DNA of 38,789 nt. Origin: a virus. This document shows, one piece after another, positions 1,088-34,091 of the stretch (its first letter is position 1; each line of letters begins with the position of its first letter). The stretch is from the IMG/VR virus record IMGVR_UViG_3300031985_000014, positions 1 to 38,789 of that record; one strand, given 5' to 3'. The translations under genes and the position numbers were made by a program. The notes under the pieces were generated by a model. That model did no database searches, was not told the DNA's origin, and worked only from the letters and a program-made list of their open reading frames with translations.

Positions 1088-1133
1088 AAAAAAACCTCGC
1101 AAGTTTTTCTTATTGACCCCTGCAGAAATAGCA

Positions 1134-1212
1134 AAGGTCGGGAGCTAAGAACCGCTTGCGACGGCCAGGCCTATTTCCCTTTCGGGTATTTTATTAGCCT
1201 ACTCCCGACCTT
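1134..1212 (-). ncRNA. Folded 5' leader candidate upstream of rha
   Basis: An 11-bp perfect inverted repeat (AAGGTCGGGAG at 1134-1144, CTCCCGACCTT at 1202-1212) closes a region that contains two further hairpins when read on the minus strand: CCC-GAAA-GGG at 1177-1186, with a GNRA-type loop, and CCGT-CGCAA-GCGG at 1152-1164. The closing stem begins a few bases after the predicted start of transcription. No T tract follows, so it does not look like a simple terminator. It matches no riboswitch or ribozyme that I recognise. It may be a cis-regulatory RNA or a protein-binding operator; only the folding potential is seen. Confidence 0.45.
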
Positions 1213-1705: not shown

Positions 1706-2824
1706 ATGGCCGTCAAGCTGCTGCAGGGCCGCGCCCTTCCCTACCGCGTCTACTGGCGCAACCCCTTCACCGGGAAGGTCCAGACCAAACACGTCGCGAC
1801 CCTGGCCGAGGCCAGGAGGCTCGACAGCCTGGTCAAGCATCAAATCCAGCATGACCCAGAGGCCTTGCGCCCAGAAGACCAGTCCGCTCCAGCCCTGACC
1901 GCGCCGACAGTGGCGAGCATCGTCTGGACACACCTGCGGACCAGGAAAATGAAGCCGGACAACTTGCGGGAGACGATTTACCACGCCCGGCCAGTACTGG
2001 ACCACATCGGCGCCGTCCCAATCTCAGACCTGAAAAAATCCCACTTGCGCGACGTGGTGGCGCTCATGCGCGACGCCGGGCTGTCCTCATCGACGATCAA
2101 CCGCCGCATGGCCATTATCAAGGCGGCGCTGAATTGGGCCGAGGTCGAAGAGATGATCGAGACGAACCCGGCCCGGCTGTTCTCGGTCCCGCGCGGCCAG
2201 GCCCTGCAGATCCCGCCCCCGACGCCTCGCGAGCTTGAAGCGATGCTGGCCGTAGCCATGCCGCACATTCAGCGAGTCATCATCCTTGGGCTGTCATTTG
2301 GCGTGCGCGTCGGGCCGTCAGAGCTGTTCGGGATTCAGTGGGCGCATGTGGACTTGTTCCGATGGTCCATGCGCGTCTGGTCGGCGGACAAAAATCAAAA
2401 TCGCCAGTACAGGGATCTGAAGATCAGGGAATCGTTACGGCCGACGTTTTCCGCTTGGGCCGAACAAGACGCGGCCATGGGGGTGACCCATCTGATCCAC
2501 TGGCGTGGCAAGCCAGTCAACGCGATCAAGCGATCCTGGAAAGAGACGCTTGACAAGGCCGGCATCACCCGCAGGATCAGGCCCTACGACCTGCGCCACG
2601 CCCACGCCACCGAGGCCCTGGCCCACGGCGCCGACGTGAAGGCCGTGGCCGAAAACATGGGGCACTCGGACACGACGATGATTTACAGACACTACCAGCA
2701 TGTCCTGGTCCGCCAGCGCGAAGCAGCCCTTGAATCGGTGCCCGATCTGGTAATACAAACCGGTAATACAAACGGGCATATTTCACCCATTTTTTGTGAT
2801 ACCGCAGAGGAAAAAGTTCAATAA
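1706..2824 (+). CDS. int: Tyrosine recombinase integrase
   Basis: A 372-residue phage integrase. Residues ~65-150 form the SAM-like core-binding domain. The catalytic domain shows Arg201 (GVRVGPSELFG), the HxxR-equivalent YDLR with Arg297 (the first His is replaced by Tyr294), His320 in MGHSD and the nucleophile Tyr327 in TTMIYRHY. It catalyses site-specific integration and excision between attP and attB. The start at 1706 follows the HTH gene by nine bases; the ribosome site (GGAG) lies rather far upstream. The gene ends 24 bp before a tRNA-Ala 3' half, which is the normal relation of int to attP. Confidence 0.95.
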   Translation: MAVKLLQGRALPYRVYWRNPFTGKVQTKHVATLAEARRLDSLVKHQIQHDPEALRPEDQSAPALTAPTVASIVWTHLRTRKMKPDNLRETIYHARPVLDHIGAVPISDLKKSHLRDVVALMRDAGLSSSTINRRMAIIKAALNWAEVEEMIETNPARLFSVPRGQALQIPPPTPRELEAMLAVAMPHIQRVIILGLSFGVRVGPSELFGIQWAHVDLFRWSMRVWSADKNQNRQYRDLKIRESLRPTFSAWAEQDAAMGVTHLIHWRGKPVNAIKRSWKETLDKAGITRRIRPYDLRHAHATEALAHGADVKAVAENMGHSDTTMIYRHYQHVLVRQREAALESVPDLVIQTGNTNGHISPIFCDTAEEKVQ

Positions 2825-4378: not shown

Positions 4379-7024
4379 CTAATATTTCCACATAAGTTTT
4401 GAACTGTCGGCGTCCCACATGAGGGTCGCGTCATTGGCTGACCACATATAGTCCGCGCTGCTTCCGTAGTTGATGACCACCCAGGGACCCCTGGCCCCAC
4501 CCATCGCCGCTACCCGGACAATGGTTGCGCTCCCATAAATGGCCGTCGCGGCGCAGTTGGCGGCGGACGGTTCGTGCGTCCTGGTCCACGTCTGCCCGTC
4601 GCTGGATTGTTCCACCAGGTAAAAATCAGCCCAGGGCGAGGGCTCCCAGGAAAGAAGCATCCTGGACGGGTCCCCGACGACAGACCGCGCCACCAGGCCC
4701 CGGATGACCGGCGCGAGCTTGTAGCCCTCAAGCTGGCTGGTGGCCGGAGCTGGGGCGAACAGGCCCTGCTCCAGCGTGTGTACGTTGTCATCCTCGTTGA
4801 CGGCCTCAATGTCGACCTGGTTCAGGGACCGGGGCCGAATCGACAGGACCCGTGCCCGGAGAAAGGTCGTCGCGCCCCACCCAAAGGAAATGTGGGTCCT
4901 CTCGCGCTCCATCCCGGTGTAGGGGACGATGGCGGGTATTTCGGCCAATACCACATGGTACGCAGACCCCCCCATCGTGCAGGAATACGGCCCGACAAGG
5001 CCCCCATCTGGCTTTCTCAGGGCGACGTAATGTGTTTCCCCGTCCATCCAAGTCAGTGGCTCGGAAAGGCGCGCGGTCATCGTTCCCGCGTCCCACTCGA
5101 CAATTTCCCCGTGTTGACCGAAGGCGGGCATGTCGTGCTGTATGGCGATGAGGTCGCCAGGGGAGATGAGAAACCCTTCCATTTCTGTCGAAAAATTGAC
5201 GAACACTCGCCTCCAGGCGTTTGTTCCCGCGTGGTAGATCCCTTCTCTGAACGCCTGCTGCCGATCCGTGATCCCGAAAAGGTCAAGCGTCGCTGGCTTT
5301 GTTTCAGGGGCACCAGGCACCTTTACTCTCACCGTGCGTTCCGCCCAAACGTCAGCATCAAAATATTTGATGTCGATGCAGTCTGCCGTGTCCTCGGACG
5401 GGAGCGCGAAGCGGATTGAGAAGGAGTCCCGAAGGATGTTCCGCTGCGAAAAAAGGGCCACGGGGATTGATTCGGCCTGGTCGCGAAAGACGCGGAGAAT
5501 CCCAGCCTGGAGAAAGGGCCTGGCGCGACCGGCGACAAGAATCTTGGCGATTGCAGACCATGCGTCGGATGTCGAGTCGAAGCGGGCGTCGAAGGTGTCA
5601 CCCCGCGCAGCCCAAGTCGCCTCAAGGGTCAAAAAGGCGGGCAGGTCAATCATCGCGTCGGGAAATCCGACTTGCTTTGCCGCGTGAACGGCGGCCCAGG
5701 CAATGGACCTGGTCGGCAAAAGTCCTGACCAGGCGGATCCGTTCCATGTCGCCAGCTTGCGGGTGGCGATGACGTTGATCTTGCGGGAAGACAGGCCCGT
5801 GAGCTGGCTGGACGCCCGCATTTTGATGGCCAGGTGCGTTGTGTCTCCGAATGTCCGCTGGTCTTTGATGTACCCGCGCAGGCCGCCCCAAACAATATTA
5901 TGGCCGTATCGACTGCTGGTCTGTTCTGCGTTGGTGCGCACGACGCGAGCCTTGTAGCGGCCCGGGGCCACGGGGATTTTTTCCGAGTATCGTTGCGGCG
6001 TGGCCGTGGCCCCTGTGTAGGTCTTTGTAACGACCGTGGTCCAAGATCCAATCTCTGCGCCATGGTCATCGATCAGGCACAACTGACCCTGCACGGAGAT
6101 AGATACAGAGGACAGGCTCCCATTGTCGTTTGCGTAGAACAAGCCACGTGGAGTGATAAAGTCGAATCCGACAAAGTTGACCGCTGTTCCGGAAGCGTTG
6201 ACCGTGAACGCACTGGTCGGGACGTTGTGCGGCATTTCCTGGCCGCCAACTTCCACGGACGTGACAACGTTGGCCGGAAACAGAGTCACGGCCTGGTGCG
6301 GCCCAACTAGCTCATAGGTCACATCTTCAAACTCAGCAAGCGGGGTGTCTTCGATCCGGATGGCCTCGATACTGTATTCCCCGCGCCCGATACACAAAAA
6401 ACAATAGAGAAACTGTTCGTTACCCTGGAACTCCTGGTATGGCTGCGCACCATAGTCCGGGTATGCAAGCATACGGCCGAAGTGCTCCGGGACGGGCAGC
6501 CCCAAGCGGGCAGTGTTGCCCTGCGCGGTCAACGTGTAGGTCGGAGACAAGGCCGTGGACCCAGCGCCGGCGGACGGGAGGGCCTGTGCCGGAATCAGGG
6601 CGTTGACGATGGCCGACCCGACCATCATGGTCACGCCTGCCCCTATGGCTCCCCAGGCGGATCCACCGAGCCCAAGAAGGGTCCCTCCGTTTGCGAACAT
6701 TGCCGCCCCGCCGATCCAGGCGCCCACGCCTGCGGAGAGCGCCACCACGGCAAGCATGGCGATGATTCTGAGCGGGTTTGACCCGCCTCCCCCCTGGGGA
6801 AGGGCCTCAACGTCGATGAAGACCAGTATTTGCCCGCGCAAAACAATGAGATTCCCCCACTCCCTGCGGAGGACCGGCTTTCCGTCGAGCAGGGCCACAT
6901 AGGGCCGATCCCATTTCGGGTCGAGGGTGGCGATGCTCTGCTCACCGATGACCTCCACGCGCCGCCGCTGCGGGCAAAGAACGTGGTCAATGAAAACGGC
7001 CGTGGCGTGCTGGTGGTCAACCAT
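4379..7024 (-). CDS. J-like tail tip / host specificity protein
   Basis: 881 residues. The N-terminus is a short beta domain followed by two long hydrophobic, glycine-rich stretches (NPLRIIAMLAVVALSAGVGAWI and a Gly/Ala-rich second one), then the large TipJ-type region (AQGNTARLGLPVPEHFGRMLAYPDYGAQP, YCFLCIGRGEYSIEAIRIEDTP) and fibronectin-like modules near the end. This is the central tail-tip protein of lambda-like siphophages, forming the hub to which fibres attach. ATG 7024 is chosen over a start 39 bases upstream because AGGAG stands before it and it overlaps the NlpC/P60 stop by eight bases. The C-terminal 40 residues (MWSANDATLMWDADSSKLMWKY) are a Trp/Asp-rich repeat. Confidence 0.9.
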   Translation of the reverse strand: MVDHQHATAVFIDHVLCPQRRRVEVIGEQSIATLDPKWDRPYVALLDGKPVLRREWGNLIVLRGQILVFIDVEALPQGGGGSNPLRIIAMLAVVALSAGVGAWIGGAAMFANGGTLLGLGGSAWGAIGAGVTMMVGSAIVNALIPAQALPSAGAGSTALSPTYTLTAQGNTARLGLPVPEHFGRMLAYPDYGAQPYQEFQGNEQFLYCFLCIGRGEYSIEAIRIEDTPLAEFEDVTYELVGPHQAVTLFPANVVTSVEVGGQEMPHNVPTSAFTVNASGTAVNFVGFDFITPRGLFYANDNGSLSSVSISVQGQLCLIDDHGAEIGSWTTVVTKTYTGATATPQRYSEKIPVAPGRYKARVVRTNAEQTSSRYGHNIVWGGLRGYIKDQRTFGDTTHLAIKMRASSQLTGLSSRKINVIATRKLATWNGSAWSGLLPTRSIAWAAVHAAKQVGFPDAMIDLPAFLTLEATWAARGDTFDARFDSTSDAWSAIAKILVAGRARPFLQAGILRVFRDQAESIPVALFSQRNILRDSFSIRFALPSEDTADCIDIKYFDADVWAERTVRVKVPGAPETKPATLDLFGITDRQQAFREGIYHAGTNAWRRVFVNFSTEMEGFLISPGDLIAIQHDMPAFGQHGEIVEWDAGTMTARLSEPLTWMDGETHYVALRKPDGGLVGPYSCTMGGSAYHVVLAEIPAIVPYTGMERERTHISFGWGATTFLRARVLSIRPRSLNQVDIEAVNEDDNVHTLEQGLFAPAPATSQLEGYKLAPVIRGLVARSVVGDPSRMLLSWEPSPWADFYLVEQSSDGQTWTRTHEPSAANCAATAIYGSATIVRVAAMGGARGPWVVINYGSSADYMWSANDATLMWDADSSKLMWKY

Positions 7025-28896: not shown

Positions 28897-29852
28897 TGCT
28901 TGAGCCCTCGCATTGCCTTTATGTCCTGCATTTGCTTCACGATTTTTGCCGCTCCATCCTCGGGAGGCCCGGCCTCCCACCGTCGCTCTCGAATCCACCG
29001 CGAGAGGCTTGGGACGTATCGCCCGCCGTCGTCTGTCCATTGCGGCGATGCCCGCCATTGGGCCAGGATTGGCAGCACGATGGGGTGTCCGGGGTAGGCA
29101 TGAGACGCCTTGCACTGCTTGAACGCTATCCAGGCAGCGGCCATGCCCTCTTCTTTGCGCGGGTAGTGGTCGGCCAGCTCCAAGAACTCGGAGCTGTACT
29201 CGGTCGGTGCCGGGCCAGGGGGCAATGGCGCTTTGCGCTGGCTGGCCTCGCCAGATAGCGGGGCCGTAACCGTGTCCGCCCGTGGCGGATCGGCAGGGGG
29301 TATTTCCGGAATTTCCGGAGAAGCGGAGCGATCAACGCGCGCGCGCGCGTCTTGAGCGTGTGGAGCTGGTTCTGGAGATGGAGATGGAGATGGAGATGGA
29401 GATGGAGATGGAGATGGGGCATTGCCTTTGGCATCATTCCGCATTGCGCCCGCATTGCGCCCGCATTGCCCTTCCGATGCGCCCGCATTGCCATCGCATT
29501 TGCGCTTGCCTTCCCATCGTGTATTCGCCGCATTCCGCGCGGCTTCAGACCGTCTTGACGCGGTGGCTGCGTATCCGTTGTGAAGGTCCCACTCATGGAG
29601 TTTGTAGCCGGATCCAGCCCTATCCAGATAACCAGCGTCAGCCATGGCATCTGCGAGGTCCACGGAATTTTCCCAGTCCACGGCCATCTCGATGTCCTCG
29701 CGCGAATAGATACGCGACCCGTCATGCTCGTTTTGCGCAGCGTAGGCCCAAAGCATCAGGAGGGCCATGACTCCATCATTTCCGGCGCGCCTCTTCAGGC
29801 GCTTAGTCTTGATGTGCGAGAAAAAACCAACATCTACGCGAAAGTCCGCCAT
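28893..29852 (-). CDS. Phage replisome organiser / replication initiator-like protein
   Basis: 319 residues starting at ATG 29852 behind GGAGG. The N-terminal ~110 residues (MADFRVDVGFFSHIKTKRLKRRAGNDGVMALLMLWAYAAQNEHDG...) form a winged-helix domain of the kind found in phage replication initiators, ending in RRSEAARNAANTRW. A long low-complexity linker follows, including a (Ser-Pro)7-like tract, then a C-terminal domain (YSSEFLELADHYPRKEEGMAAAWIAFKQCKASHAYPGHPIV... YVPSLSRWIRERRWE) as in replication proteins O of lambdoid type. It probably recognises the origin, whose repeats lie within this gene. Confidence 0.8.
   Translation of the reverse strand: MADFRVDVGFFSHIKTKRLKRRAGNDGVMALLMLWAYAAQNEHDGSRIYSREDIEMAVDWENSVDLADAMADAGYLDRAGSGYKLHEWDLHNGYAATASRRSEAARNAANTRWEGKRKCDGNAGASEGQCGRNAGAMRNDAKGNAPSPSPSPSPSPSPSPEPAPHAQDARARVDRSASPEIPEIPPADPPRADTVTAPLSGEASQRKAPLPPGPAPTEYSSEFLELADHYPRKEEGMAAAWIAFKQCKASHAYPGHPIVLPILAQWRASPQWTDDGGRYVPSLSRWIRERRWEAGPPEDGAAKIVKQMQDIKAMRGLKQ
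29336..29349. repeat. Alternating CG tract
   Basis: Fourteen bases of strict C-G alternation lie inside the replication initiator gene. Such tracts can take the Z-DNA form. They encode Ala/Arg (RARA) in the protein. Confidence 0.6.
29374..29415. repeat. Hexanucleotide microsatellite (GGAGAT)x7
   Basis: Seven perfect GGAGAT units (plus strand) encode a Ser-Pro linker in the replication protein. Because the unit is a multiple of three, changes in copy number would alter linker length without breaking the frame. Confidence 0.9.
29440..29503. repeat. Iteron-like CGCATTGC repeats, candidate replication origin
   Basis: CGCATTGC occurs at 29440, 29451, 29462 and 29484, that is at steps of 11, 11 and 22 bases, with a fifth degenerate copy at 29495. 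They lie within the initiator gene, as in lambda, where the origin iterons are inside gene O. Regular helical phasing supports binding by a repeated protein. No AT-rich stretch is obvious beside them. Confidence 0.5.
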
Positions 29853-29980
29853 CACGCCTCCGTGAAACAGCAAAACAGTTCTATCCAAAATCTCGGGCAC
29901 GCCTCTTTCAACATCCACGGCTTCTTGCCGACGATCCGGATCATGACAACTCTGCGCTCCTCAAGTTTTCTCATCCTCAT
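29852..29980 (-). CDS. 42-residue basic protein upstream of the replication initiator
   Basis: ATG 29980 overlaps the preceding stop as ATGA, and the stop overlaps the ATG of the initiator gene as TGATG. The product MRMRKLEERRVVMIRIVGKK has a basic N-terminus and a hydrophobic, Cys-containing end (FWIELFCCFTEA). The overlaps on both sides make it a good candidate for a real coupled gene. No family is recognised. Confidence 0.55.
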   Translation of the reverse strand: MRMRKLEERRVVMIRIVGKKPWMLKEACPRFWIELFCCFTEA

Positions 29981-30375
29981 CTTCCCACCTCCATCGTTTC
30001 CAGCTTCACGGCCTTGCTCTCGCCCATGACGAACACCCGCCACTCGCACCGATGATCAAGGAACGGAGCTGACGACGTGAAACCCTTGCGCCGCATGGGC
30101 ATCAAGTCGTCATCGAACGCGACGTAGCGGACTGGCGTGTTAATCGGGAGCTTGAACGGTGGAACCGGATCGGCCCCTATTGTCTCGGCATCCCAGCCGA
30201 TGGCGTCGCAGACCATGGCAAGGACGTCCTCCCGGGAATGCACGGACTCACGCTGGCCTGGTTTATTCTGGCGCTTGCGGTTGATTTCGACGTGAAAAAA
30301 GAGAGGTTCTAGCGCGTCCGAAAGGATGATTTTCACCGGGCTAGAGTTGTCAGTTTTGACAGATATGCGGATCAT
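29977..30375 (-). CDS. Hypothetical phage protein
   Basis: 132 residues. MIRISVKTDNSSPVKIILSDALEPLFFHVEINRKRQNK starts with a beta-rich part; the middle holds a helical segment (SREDVLAMVCDAIGWDAE) and later RRKGFTSSAPFLDHRCEWRVFVMGESKAV, again beta strands. ATG 30375 overlaps the preceding stop. It lies in the early leftward operon between small regulators and the replication genes. I do not recognise the family and infer no function. Confidence 0.6.
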   Translation of the reverse strand: MIRISVKTDNSSPVKIILSDALEPLFFHVEINRKRQNKPGQRESVHSREDVLAMVCDAIGWDAETIGADPVPPFKLPINTPVRYVAFDDDLMPMRRKGFTSSAPFLDHRCEWRVFVMGESKAVKLETMEVGR

Positions 30376-30701
30376 GCGGCGTTTTCCTTGTCGATCAGGT
30401 CCAGCAAGTCCTCGAACGTCCTGATTGGACGCACATCTCCGTCATATCCGGCTTCTCGCCCGTCAGCGCCCCAGTTGTTCTCGTAGATGAACCATTCGAG
30501 CCAGGACATTTCGAGCGTGTCGCCAAGCAGCAGTGCCACGGACGATGTGGCGATCCCGTGCAGCTCCCATGTGCTCTCCTGAAACGGCCCGTCAGGATGG
30601 CAGCCAAAGACAGAAAAAACGCGCTCCATCATCTCGCGTGATGCGGTGATGTGCTTTTGCAGGTCGTGCAGGAGGGCAAGTTTTTGCTCTCGCGTCAGCA
30701 C
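30372..30701 (-). CDS. Hypothetical phage protein
   Basis: 109 residues if GTG 30701 is used, which has GGAG eight bases before it and overlaps the upstream stop; a TTG six codons earlier is the alternative. LTREQKLALLHDLQKHITASREMMERVFSVFGCHPDGPFQESTWELHGIATSSVALLLGDTLEMSWLEWFIYENNWGADG is helical with an aromatic, acidic C-terminal half. The WLEWFIYENNWG type of motif recurs in small phage proteins of early operons. The role is unknown. Confidence 0.65.
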   Translation of the reverse strand: MLTREQKLALLHDLQKHITASREMMERVFSVFGCHPDGPFQESTWELHGIATSSVALLLGDTLEMSWLEWFIYENNWGADGREAGYDGDVRPIRTFEDLLDLIDKENAA

Positions 30702-30916
30702 GACGGTGACTCCATCCAATACTCCGCTACCCTGGCCATCTCGCCATTCGCTTTCTGCACTCTGATGAGGGTCGTTTTGACACGATAGCCGAGCGTGCGC
30801 AGTTCATCGACCCGCGCCGCCGCCCTGGAAATTCCGCCCTCACGAAGGGCGTCCAGGTGTGTCATGCGGCGGCCGTTCAGGAGTTGGGCCAGGAGCCATT
30901 CGGCCTGTGGCTTCAT
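30695..30916 (-). CDS. Small winged helix-turn-helix protein
   Basis: 73 residues behind GAGGAGGTG. MKPQAEWLLAQLLNGRRMTHLDALREGGISRAAARVDELRTLGYRVKTTLIRVQKANGEMARVAEYWM has the layout of a short winged-helix domain (helix, turn, DNA-reading helix RAAARVDELRTLGY, then a beta wing) widespread in phage early regions. ATG 30916 overlaps the upstream stop as ATGA. It is probably a DNA-binding regulator of early genes. Confidence 0.75.
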   Translation of the reverse strand: MKPQAEWLLAQLLNGRRMTHLDALREGGISRAAARVDELRTLGYRVKTTLIRVQKANGEMARVAEYWMESPSC

Positions 30917-31086
30917 TCCAACACCTCCTCGGTTTCCTCTGCCCAGGCTTCGCTCGTCATTCTTCCGGCAACCCATTGGTTCTTGCGGACCAGATCGAGA
31001 ACTGCGCCCAAGTCGTTGGTATCGACATAGGCCGTGCAGACCAATTCAGCGCGGCCAGCTGATGCGTAGATACGGAAGAGCGTCAT
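30913..31086 (-). CDS. 57-residue early protein
   Basis: MTLFRIYASAGRAELVCTAYVDTNDLGAVLDLVRKNQWVAGRMTSEAWAEETEEVLE is a small beta-alpha protein that ends in an acidic helix. ATG 31086 follows the RHH gene by 25 bases, with a weak ribosome site (ACGAAG). The stop overlaps the next start. No family is recognised. Confidence 0.6.
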   Translation of the reverse strand: MTLFRIYASAGRAELVCTAYVDTNDLGAVLDLVRKNQWVAGRMTSEAWAEETEEVLE

Positions 31087-31111
31087 TGCTTCGTGATCCT
31101 TTCGTCCGACA

Positions 31112-31303
31112 TTATTCCCTGATATCCTCAAGGCAAACTCTATCGAGCCCGCGAATGTTCCGGACCTGGGGCATGGCCAGGATGATGCAAGCGCGGATGA
31201 TGTCCGAGGCCGACCGATCCTGTTCAAACGCCTGGCGTTGCAACCAAGCCTTGAAGGCCTCGTCGCACTTGAACGATATGGACTCTTCCTTCGCGGCCAT
31301 CAT
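31112..31303 (-). CDS. Ribbon-helix-helix-like DNA-binding protein
   Basis: 63 residues. KEESISFKCDEAFKAWLQRQAFEQDRSASDIIRACIILAMPQV has the beta strand, helix, helix pattern of the Arc/MetJ/CopG fold, with the strand ISFKCDE and the two helices around the SASDIIRACI turn. It begins in overlap with the stop of the HTH gene (ATGATG). Placed second in the leftward operon, it may act as an early repressor or co-regulator. The operator is not known. Confidence 0.75.
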   Translation of the reverse strand: MMAAKEESISFKCDEAFKAWLQRQAFEQDRSASDIIRACIILAMPQVRNIRGLDRVCLEDIRE

Positions 31304-31503
31304 TCCCCGCTCGCCTGCTGGCGGGGAGTCTCACCGTAGAGGATTGGCCAGAGCTTTTCGAGTGAGGCAATCGTGATGGACTTTCCACGGAGAAATTTTG
31401 AGATGCTCGGTTGTGCGACCCCGCTTTTTTCAGCCAATTCACGCTGTGAAATACCGAGGGCTCTGATCTTATCCCGGATGGATTCTTGATTGATTGTGTT
31501 CAT
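31300..31503 (-). CDS. Small Cro/CI-type helix-turn-helix repressor
   Basis: 67 residues, essentially one HTH_3 domain: RDKIRALGISQRELAEKSGVAQPSISKFLRGKSITIASLEKL, with recognition helix around QPSISKFLRG. There is no C-terminal oligomerisation or peptidase domain, so it is Cro-like in size. No Shine-Dalgarno stands before the ATG; the -10 of the promoter is only seven bases from it, so the message is probably leaderless, as for lambda cI made from PRM. It is a likely binder of the paired dyads beside its start. Confidence 0.85.
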   Translation of the reverse strand: MNTINQESIRDKIRALGISQRELAEKSGVAQPSISKFLRGKSITIASLEKLWPILYGETPRQQASGE

Positions 31504-31510
31504 GGGGGCA

Positions 31511-31539
31511 CTTCTATGCTAGACAGAATAAAACGTCAA
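31511..31539 (-). promoter_or_regulatory. Leftward early promoter
   Basis: On the minus strand -35 TTGACG (complement of 31534-31539), a 17-bp spacer and -10 TAGAAG (complement of 31511-31516) precede the HTH gene. Transcription would start at or within a base or two of the ATG. Confidence 0.65.
31513..31523. promoter_or_regulatory. Left operator dyad TCTA-TGC-TAGA
   Basis: An 11-bp dyad overlapping the -10 region of the leftward promoter. It forms part of the 18-base arm 31514-31531, which is inverted (17 of 18 bases) at 31563-31580. Confidence 0.65.
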
Positions 31540-31554
31540 GTAAGAACAAATTTA

Positions 31555-31583
31555 TTGACACATTATTCTATCTAGCATAGAAG
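31555..31583 (+). promoter_or_regulatory. Rightward early promoter
   Basis: -35 TTGACA (31555-31560), a 17-bp spacer and -10 TAGAAG (31578-31583) drive the recombination operon. The -10 hexamer is identical to that of the leftward promoter. Confidence 0.7.
31571..31581. promoter_or_regulatory. Right operator dyad TCTA-GCA-TAGA
   Basis: The mirror image of the left dyad, overlapping the -10 of the rightward promoter. A dimer bound here would block polymerase. Confidence 0.65.
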
Positions 31584-31589
31584 CTAAAT

Positions 31590-31992
31590 CAACAACGCCG
31601 CACCGCCGAACCGGCCGACCACGGGAGGCCCCAGTACGCGGGACGGAGTTGCCGGAAGGCCGACGAAGCGAAGACCGCCGAAGTGATGGGATGACGAGCT
31701 GGCATAGCCAGACGCTCCCACAAGTAGGCGAGGGACCTAGGAGGCCGGAAGGGATCTGACAACCACATAGCGAGTTCGCGTCATCCGGTGCGCATCATTG
31801 ACCGCGCGCCGTGTCAGCCCGGGAGCAACAATCCCGGGACATTGGAACAACGGGCGGACGTTCCGGCCAGGTGCGGCCGGTCCGGTCAGAGTAATCCTCT
31901 CCGCTTGGGGTCGAGCTTTCACTCCTTTCTCGACCCCGCACCAGATGACGCGAACGACAACGGACGGCTGAGAAGCCGAGGGAGCGTGCGTA
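31590..31992 (+). ncRNA. Structured leader or non-coding RNA of about 400 bases
   Basis: This stretch between the rightward promoter and the first small gene has no convincing frame with a ribosome site. It contains clear hairpins: CTGGC-ATA-GCCAG near 31700, nested in a TGGGA/TCCCA stem, CCCGGGA/TCCCGGG near 31820, CCGGCC/GGCCGG near 31865 and GGGGTCGAG/CTCGACCCC near 31905-31935, the last a perfect 9-bp stem. An antitermination or regulatory RNA is possible. Two open frames exist here (31788-32054 plus; 31737-32117 minus), but neither has a ribosome site. Confidence 0.4.
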
Positions 31993-32133
31993 ATGAGCAT
32001 CAGGACATGGCTTTCCATACACTGGCCATTCTCTCCGAAGACGCGCCTGATTGATCTGGACGGCGCGACCCTGGTCAAGCTGATCCGGATCGCAAACAAC
32101 AAAGAGAGGTTTCGCAATGTTCAGACTCGATGA
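31993..32133 (+). CDS. 46-residue first protein of the recombination operon
   Basis: ATG 31993 has GAGGGAG eight bases before it. The product begins MSIRTWLSIHWPFSPKTRLI and includes DLDGATLVKLIRIANNKERF. It overlaps the exonuclease gene by 17 bases in another frame, so its translation could be coupled to it. Small basic proteins at this place may be exonuclease modulators, but no family is recognised. Confidence 0.55.
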   Translation: MSIRTWLSIHWPFSPKTRLIDLDGATLVKLIRIANNKERFRNVQTR

Positions 32134-32968
32134 CACCGCAACACTGATTCAGGTCGGGTTGATCCCGAACATTCCGATTGAGGAATATCATCGGCACGCC
32201 AGCGTGTCGAAGTCGCAGCTTGACCAGTTCGCGAAGAGCCCGGCGCACTATCTCGCCAGCCTGACAGCGCCGAGAAAGAAAACGCCCGCAATGCGGATTG
32301 GCTCCCTGTTCCATGGCCTCGTGCTGGAGCCAGAGCGCGTCAAGGTCGCCGTCGCGCCGGACGGCGACAAGCGGACCAAGGACGGCAAAGCGGCATGGGA
32401 AGCCTTCTGTCTCGAAAACGCCGGGGCCGAGATCGTGACGGCGGATGAGGGTGAGATGCTGAACGGCATGGCCGAGTCCATCCGCAAGCATCCTGCGGCA
32501 TCTGCACTGCTCTCCGGGCCAGGAACCGCAGAGGGGTCGTGCTGGTGGTACGACAACGGATCCGGGGAGCTGTGCCGGTGCAGGCCGGACTTCTACCGCG
32601 CCGACCTCGGCATCATCGTTGACCTCAAGACGACGGACGACGCTTCGCCCGCCGGGTTCGCCAAGTCCATCTGGAAATACGCCTACCATCGCCAAGCGGC
32701 CATCTACATGGACGGGACCAGCTCGGCCACTGGCGACCACGTGAAAGGGTTTGTGTTCGTAGCCGTGGAAAAGGCCAGCCCGTATGCGGTGGGCGTCTAC
32801 AGGCTCGACATGCAGGGAGAAGAGGCCGGCCGCGTGAGCTACCAGAGCCTTCTACTTGATCTGGCGGGCTGCAAGATTAACCGGAATTTTCCCGCCTATT
32901 CCAACAAAATCGAAACCATCAGCCTCCCGGCATATGCCGTGAAAGAGGTCTACAATGAGTACGAATAA
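32117..32968 (+). CDS. PD-(D/E)XK exonuclease (RecE/DUF3799 type)
   Basis: 283 residues. HASVSKSQLDQFAKSPAHYLAS at the start, then MRIGSLFHGLVLEP (conserved His), CRCRPDFYRADLGIIVDLKTTDD (catalytic Asp and Glu/Asp-x-Lys) and YHRQAAIYMD (Gln-Tyr motif) place it in the RecE/RecB-nuclease phage exonuclease group. It degrades 5' ends of double-stranded DNA and leaves 3' overhangs for the recombinase encoded next. GAGAGG stands eight bases before the ATG. Its stop overlaps the recT start. Confidence 0.9.
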   Translation: MFRLDDTATLIQVGLIPNIPIEEYHRHASVSKSQLDQFAKSPAHYLASLTAPRKKTPAMRIGSLFHGLVLEPERVKVAVAPDGDKRTKDGKAAWEAFCLENAGAEIVTADEGEMLNGMAESIRKHPAASALLSGPGTAEGSCWWYDNGSGELCRCRPDFYRADLGIIVDLKTTDDASPAGFAKSIWKYAYHRQAAIYMDGTSSATGDHVKGFVFVAVEKASPYAVGVYRLDMQGEEAGRVSYQSLLLDLAGCKINRNFPAYSNKIETISLPAYAVKEVYNEYE

Positions 32969-33896
32969 CCTCCCCGCCACCGCCCAGCCCGCTGCGCCGA
33001 TTCAAGTTGGCCTGACCGACTCGCAATCCTTTGAACTCGCCCAGCGCGTTGCGAAATGCTTCGCTATGAGCACACTGGTGCCGAAGGACTACCAAAACAA
33101 CCTCCCAAACTGCGTCATCGCGCTGAATATGGCCTCTCGCATGGGCGCGGACCCGATGATGTGCATGCAAAATTTGCACGTAGTACACGGGCGGCCGGCC
33201 TGGTCTGCACAGTTTCTAATTGCCACATTCAACAAGTGCGGGCGCTTCAGCGCAATCCGCTACGAGTTCATCGGACAGGAAGGTACTGACTCTTGGGGAT
33301 GCCGAGCCAAAGCGACGGAGCTTGCGACAGGCGAAGTCCTGTCCGGCACCACAGTGACCATCTCCATGGCGAAAAAGGAAGGATGGTACCAGAAGAACGG
33401 CTCCAAGTGGCAGACCATGCCAGAGCAGATGCTCATGTATCGCGCCGCCTCCTGGTTCGTCCGCGCCTACGCCCCGGAAATCGCAATGGGCCTTCAGACT
33501 GCCGAGGAAATGCGCGACACATACGAACTCGAACGCGACGGCGAGTCGTTCAGCCTCCCGCCCAAGGGCCAGACGAGCGCGGACCTGAACGCCATGCTGC
33601 ACCCATTTCAGGAGCAGGTCGAGCCGGTCGACTTGCCGCCAGCCACTACCCATACTCAGAAACCACATCCCCAGGATCAGGCCCAGCAGCCCTCAACCAC
33701 GCAGCCAGAAAACGGCAAGAAGCGCCCAACCGCCCAGGAACTCGAAGAAATGCGCGCTGACATGGTTTGCGAGATTGAGGCCAAGGGCGTCAGCCTGAAG
33801 GAGATCGAAAAGGAAGTCGGCGAGTTCTCCAATCGCTGGATGCCCAGGCACATCGAAAAGATCAGGGGAGAGATTCTGCCTGGTCTCCTGGAATAG
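32955..33896 (+). CDS. recT: RecT family single-strand annealing protein
   Basis: 313 residues. The core QSFELAQRVAKCFAMSTLVPKDYQNNLPNCVIALNMASRMGADPMMCMQNLHVVHGRPAWSAQFLIATFNKCGRF and the KWQTMPEQMLMYRAASWFVRAYAPEI segment belong to the RecT/RedB family. It binds the 3' overhangs made by the exonuclease and anneals them to complementary DNA. The last ~100 residues are a Pro/Gln-rich linker and a helical tail (RPTAQELEEMRADMVCEIEAKGV), longer than in E. coli RecT. The pairing with exonuclease and SSB is a standard phage recombination set. Confidence 0.93.
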   Translation: MSTNNLPATAQPAAPIQVGLTDSQSFELAQRVAKCFAMSTLVPKDYQNNLPNCVIALNMASRMGADPMMCMQNLHVVHGRPAWSAQFLIATFNKCGRFSAIRYEFIGQEGTDSWGCRAKATELATGEVLSGTTVTISMAKKEGWYQKNGSKWQTMPEQMLMYRAASWFVRAYAPEIAMGLQTAEEMRDTYELERDGESFSLPPKGQTSADLNAMLHPFQEQVEPVDLPPATTHTQKPHPQDQAQQPSTTQPENGKKRPTAQELEEMRADMVCEIEAKGVSLKEIEKEVGEFSNRWMPRHIEKIRGEILPGLLE

Positions 33897-33899
33897 GCC

Positions 33900-34091
33900 A
33901 TGTGCTGCAGCGGATGTCCCTACGAAAACTTCCACGGCGAGTGCAAGGGCCGTCCGCGCGGCCCAATCACGGCCAGGCCACACTGCTTCGAGCCCGAGGA
34001 TGTCGAGTCCTACAACGAGAGCGTCGAGGCTGATGCGTGCCTGGATTACGACCTGCTGCAGGAAGATGCGGCTATTTCCTATTCCTGCTGA
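33900..34091 (+). CDS. 63-residue cysteine-rich protein
   Basis: MCCSGCPYENFHGECKGRPRGPITARPHCF contains five Cys and a His in the first 30 residues, a likely metal-binding knuckle, followed by an acidic tail. ATG 33900 follows the recT stop by three bases. It lies within the recombination operon. No family is recognised. Confidence 0.6.
   Translation: MCCSGCPYENFHGECKGRPRGPITARPHCFEPEDVESYNESVEADACLDYDLLQEDAAISYSC

Follow-up and report, generated by a model that had tools for sequence, protein, structure and literature searches.

In phage lambda, the integrase gene is located at the far end of the recombination arm. In phage Mu, the first gene of the early operon encodes Ner, a small Cro-like repressor of divergent promoters, its own among them. 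According to a published account, lambda-type repressors act at two master operators that overlap divergent early promoters (PMC1934351). The Cro protein of the telomere phage PY54 is described as having a 16-bp palindromic operator, the only one that it recognises, in a system with leaderless mRNAs (PMC4488713); the same source proposes that this Cro acts against the gene of the prophage repressor, leaving its own synthesis unrepressed.

The sequence analysed here, referred to below as the window, is the 38,789-base IMG/VR virus record IMGVR_UViG_3300031985_000014, which derives from environmental DNA and is classed as linear. The best-scoring inverted repeat of the whole window, among those with a span below 120 bp, occupies positions 31511-31583. 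Its left arm (31511-31531) pairs with its right arm (31563-31583) at 20 of 21 positions, and the longer arms 31511-31539 and 31555-31583 are paired at 25 of 29 positions (86%). A recount of the 18-base arms noted in the sequence-only reading that preceded this analysis gave the same 17 inverted bases of 18. The repeat scored 18, whereas none of 1000 dinucleotide-shuffled versions of the 140-bp stretch exceeded 13 and none of 200 shuffled versions of 600 bp exceeded 11; the repeat is far beyond chance expectation.

The repeat contains two promoter-like sequences arranged as a divergent, inverted pair. The leftward one, on the minus strand, consists of a -35 hexamer TTGACG (31534-31539, read from 31539 to 31534), with like geometry before the corresponding gene in two related records, and a -10 hexamer TAGAAG (31511-31516, read from 31516 to 31511), which lies 7 nt before the ATG of a gene for a helix-turn-helix (HTH) protein. 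The rightward one, on the plus strand, comprises TTGACA (31555-31560) and TAGAAG (31578-31583), 7 nt before a leader with a homologue in one of these records. Every letter of the matching -35 hexamers, identical -10 hexamers and 17-bp spacers claimed beforehand is present. The pattern TTGAC[AG]-N16-18-TA[GT]AA[GT] has two matches in the 38,789 bases, namely, these two promoters. The AT-rich centre between both -35 hexamers (31540-31554) may be a UP element used by both promoters, or a place where polymerases interfere with each other. Since TAGAAG matches TATAAT at four of six positions and lacks the final T (-7T), and a consensus scan of positions 29000-34000 that required this T returned neither promoter, the promoter reading leans mainly on comparison with related genomes. 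An alternative -10 for the rightward promoter, TAGCAT, was rejected: it is located 12 nt past TTGACA, which is too short a spacing, and it is also disfavoured by the related genome L013, whose -10, measured from the start of the leader, falls where TAGAAG does.

The dyad TCTA-N3-TAGA occurs exactly at 31513-31523 and 31571-31581 and nowhere else in the window, as expected from the earlier description of an identical dyad overlapping each -10. It is better read as a putative 17-bp operator, TTCTAT-N5-ATAGAA. The left operator, TTCTATGCTAGACAGAA (31512-31528), has one mismatch to this pattern, and the right operator, TTCTATCTAGCATAGAA (31566-31582), is a perfect 6+6 dyad; the other three of the five matches in the window need three mismatches, which is about chance level. 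At each promoter, the operator spans the spacer to the -10, and a hand count puts its centre 4 bp before that hexamer in both cases. Over 30-base segments brought into register at the -10, the window's promoters were identical to each other at 25 of 30 positions. The exact operator string CTATGCTAGAYAGAATAA did not occur in the viral contig collection. The presence of a matched operator at each promoter agrees with the proposal that one regulator could shut off both sides. That it would do so equally is not to be assumed, because the right promoter has the stronger features, a consensus -35 and the perfect dyad.

The leftward operon is led by the gene of the 67-aa HTH protein (31300-31503, minus strand), whose product matches Pfam HTH_3 (E 6e-10; 39.4 bits, cut-off 23) and regulators in PHROGs. 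Its structure model (pLDDT 79) gave Foldseek matches to SinR, HipB, controller proteins including C.Esp1396I, and P22 c2 with a TM of about 0.6 and a best E of 0.038, so that the protein combines the HTH_3-type profile and the helical fold of Cro/C1-type regulators. The next gene (31112-31303, minus strand), whose start overlaps the HTH stop codon (ATGA), encodes a 63-aa protein with weak resemblance to ribbon-helix-helix (RHH) proteins. It is followed by a gene for an HTH_39 (winged HTH) protein (30695-30976, minus strand), which is kept in the related records L013, L014 and L167, and then by genes for a replication initiation protein, a Holliday junction resolvase and a late activator, past which lysis, terminase and structural genes are found.

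The predicted rightward transcript begins with a 5′ leader (31590-31777, plus strand) homologous to L013:4854-5015, followed by a 46-aa small ORF (31993-32133, plus strand), a RecE-like exonuclease VIII (DUF3799; 32117-32968, plus strand), which is the first large gene of the operon, a RecT-like annealing protein (32955-33896, plus strand) and SSB. The small ORF stands just before the exonuclease start and overlaps it; it has no Pfam or PHROGs match and is kept in L013, where its counterpart (5859-6017) shows 75% DNA identity over 96 nt and a similar protein. An integrase gene (1706-2824, plus strand), which indicates temperate ancestry or lifestyle, takes the far end of this operon if the record ends join. 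Joining is supported by the L014 record, whose left end carries the SSB homologue and whose exonuclease runs off the right end. The small RNA sRNA-Xcc1 is mentioned alongside integrons; a match to its Rfam family (RF02221, 59.3 bits, cut-off 53) was noted at 1128-1210 (minus strand), just upstream of the integrase; a scan of five loci from relatives gave no match at the gathering cut-off.

Three other viral records hold parts of this early region. Two of them, L013 (IMGVR_UViG_3300040971_000025, 36,845 bases) and L014, include the divergent region, giving three genomes comparable across it; their exonucleases are 71% and 78% identical to that of the window, respectively. A BLASTN search of 30900-32200 against the phage collection returned nothing, and an exonuclease-alignment scan of genome contigs returned just three distant Aeromonas loci. 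Only one new record (L167/L184) was gained from scans that used the gene at 29977-30375 and HTH_39, and its contig ends before the promoter. These sequence searches yielded no isolate, no host and no additional divergent region.

L014 has the gene order of the window and likewise places its HTH gene back to back with the rightward promoter. L013 has the same early operons, but its promoters are 1.3 kb apart. The segment between them contains a 122-aa gene with a weak HTH_3 match (E 0.007) and a 174-aa ORF, after which a terminator-like hairpin was seen by eye, and the leftward arm carries a CII-like gene (PF06892, E 1.9e-11). The predicted layout of L013 is that of lambda: cro, OR, candidate repressor, accessory gene, OL. 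The 174-aa ORF, with no family match, is a possible lysogenic cargo gene; a signal-peptide-like N-terminal stretch was noted in it by eye (L013:4198-4722, plus strand). The segment with the candidate repressor is missing from both the window and L014, and it is in this sense that the window can be called simpler than lambda, as had been suggested.

A different putative operator, the 16-bp TTNCCCAWWTGGGNAA, was found in L013. It is present in three copies in the 36,845 bases, against none for a reversed-pattern control; one copy overlies the HTH-gene promoter and the other two are at the exonuclease promoter. By hand count, the operator centre precedes the -10 by 5.5 bp on either side. The 30-base segments of the two L013 promoters agree at 20 of 30 positions, and those of the window and L013 at 12-14 of 30. 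In L014, no operator common to both promoters was detected (13 of 30 at best, small shifts allowed), which counts against a universal design. Thus, in two of the three genomes, the putative operators appear to be alike within a genome and unlike between genomes, as in lambdoid immunity types. Since both homologous promoters of L013 share one different operator at a constant distance from the -10, the reading of the window as divergent early promoters with one matched putative operator each is well supported.

The same comparison bears on whether the repeat is a structural element, such as a replication origin, a hairpin or a recombination site, and not a promoter pair. A long hairpin can indeed be folded from the repeat strand, and a cmscan search of the region returned solely microRNA-precursor models far below their cut-offs. 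Nevertheless, the promoter spacing, the -10 offset, the gene-start geometry and the leader start are all kept in the relatives, though the long repeat is absent there or split over 1.3 kb, which makes a purely structural role very improbable.

As for the transcript starts, all three genomes have a candidate leftward -10 sequence (TAGAAG, TAAGCG and TAGACG) 6-7 nt upstream of the HTH start codon (ATG), so that leaderless HTH mRNAs are predicted; in the window, the mRNA would probably start at about 31503. The leftward -10 might instead be TAGCAT in another register, where L014 has TATCAT; in this register, the mRNAs would carry leaders only a few nucleotides long.

The putative rightward start at about 31590 is supported by the homologous leader in L013. 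The local alignment score of the two leaders was 97, compared with a mean of 40.7 and a maximum of 64 in 500 shuffles, and the homology starts 6-7 nt after the -10 in both genomes, upstream of which the operators differ. The leader of L014 is homologous to that of L013 (score 170) and has no detectable homology with that of the window (score 25, reached by 366 of 500 shuffles). A block common to L013:5000-5143 and L014:4640-4783 shows 80% identity over 147 columns, with a near-identical stretch of more than 40 nt; it was not detected in the window.

A structured RNA in the leader was considered and provisionally rejected. The two-sequence consensus fold contained one compensatory and one one-sided change among 29 pairs, and 277 of 300 column-shuffled alignments folded equally well or better. 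The z-scores of the single-sequence folds were -1.75 for the window and -0.08 for L013, and no Rfam family fits the leader. Inspection by eye found no reading frame shared by the window and L013 in this region. Possibly, the leader functions in antitermination. Pattern searches of the viral contigs with leader motifs gave 33 stretches for the first pattern and 91 for the second, with all four and all five of the respective extra motifs nearby solely in the contig of L013. The third pattern gave 13 stretches, and the 12 other than that of L013 scored 34-60 against both leaders, which was taken as chance.

The likeliest binder of both putative operators is the 67-residue HTH protein, to judge by its conservation of position: its gene stands first in the leftward arm in all three genomes whose records include that end. 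Its identity to the other two HTH proteins is low (37% and 33%), and all three diverge in the first residues of the recognition helix, which is consistent with their differing operators. The sequence-only reading had named the 63-residue RHH-like protein as a second possible binder. The Arc operator has TAGA half-sites, and Arc-type dimers use tandem short boxes; the window offers arrays of such boxes on the right (TCTA-TCTA-GCA-TAGA) and on the left (TCTA-TGC-TAGA-CAGA), on which the RHH-like protein could sit in the manner of Arc-type dimers. In addition, its gene belongs to the HTH operon, with translational coupling to the HTH gene, and its model weakly resembles the folds of CdbA, CopG and Arc. 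A word search of the open-access literature for papers on Arc half-sites found none. The RHH-like protein is, however, absent from both L013 and L014 and thus found in one of the three genomes, whereas the HTH protein is present in all of them, and L013 has paired operators though no RHH-like protein was found there. Its model is also poor (pLDDT 68.6), with no Pfam match and a best PDB sequence E of 0.77. Of the two proposed proteins, the HTH is therefore favoured, and binding by the RHH-like protein seems quite unlikely.

There is no CI-type repressor gene between the promoters of the window and no room for one within 31503-31590. In searches of the window with HTH_3 and HTH_26, profiles that can miss a divergent repressor, the 67-aa protein was the sole match; HTH_3 also missed the HTH protein of L014 itself. 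Peptidase_S24 had no match in any of the four records examined. All four carry an integrase, which makes lysogeny likely. It is thus conceivable, if somewhat doubtful, that the main binder is a lysogenic repressor supplied by the host or by an unrecognised part of the genome, with the HTH protein as its antagonist at shared sites in a CI/Cro-like relationship. The integrases and the 122-aa weak HTH_3 gene between the promoters of L013 speak for such a repressor, which would be compatible with the favoured explanation; against it, the profiles match just the 67-aa HTH protein and S24 none in the window, a record that may be incomplete. The more radical reading, in which the 67-residue autoregulator and the two operators are the whole switch, a CI/rex-type segment has been lost, and any lysogeny is held by the Cro-like or the RHH-like protein, appears unlikely. 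If it were true, the two operons would be fused back to back, with one dimer per promoter setting both.

Taken as a whole, the region is likely to be a reduced lambda-type PL/PR early pair in which the HTH protein shuts off both arms. In this scheme, both promoters would fire upon infection. The leftward promoter would give a leaderless mRNA beginning at the ATG of the Cro-like HTH gene and running into the operon of regulators and replication genes, and the rightward promoter would give a leader of roughly 530 nt followed by the RecE/RecT recombination operon. As the HTH protein accumulates, its dimer would cover both -10 sequences, switching off its own operon at the same time as the recombination operon. 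One small Cro-like protein would thus probably shut off both sides, the most likely mode being delayed shut-off of the Cro/Ner type by a single autoregulator. So understood, the window would be a natural minimal lambda-type early switch, with two promoters, two operators and one regulator in about 90 bp of control DNA. Word searches of the open-access literature found no description of a repressor-less back-to-back PL/PR pair, which may exist elsewhere.

The resemblance to PL/PR of lambda, with its OL and OR operators and its CI and Cro proteins, lies at the sequence level in the diverging early promoters, each overlapped by a related putative operator. A small Cro-like gene comes first in the arm leading to replication, and the exonuclease and annealing protein genes are in the other arm, with the integrase at its far end, assuming that the record ends join. 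In contrast to lambda, with three operators per promoter and a repressor gene between the promoters, the window has a single putative operator per promoter and no such gene between them; its predicted starts are about 86 bp apart, while those of lambda are over a kilobase apart. With Mu Ner, the HTH protein of the window shares its small size, Cro-like nature and place as the first gene of an early operon; the opposite promoter serves the repressor gene in Mu and the recombination operon in the window. PY54 Cro, as described, provides a precedent for a single 16-bp operator combined with leaderless mRNAs (PMC4488713); unlike that system as reported, the window has an operator pair covering the two early promoters, and no repressor gene was recognised in that region. 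Finally, L013 is like the window in its early operons, in one operator type at both promoters and in the homologous leader, and it differs in the operator sequence, the three copies and the 1.3-kb segment with the candidate repressor and possible cargo gene between the promoters. The two together offer a test of what the repressor segment contributes and of whether one Cro-like protein is enough for a phage that carries an integrase.
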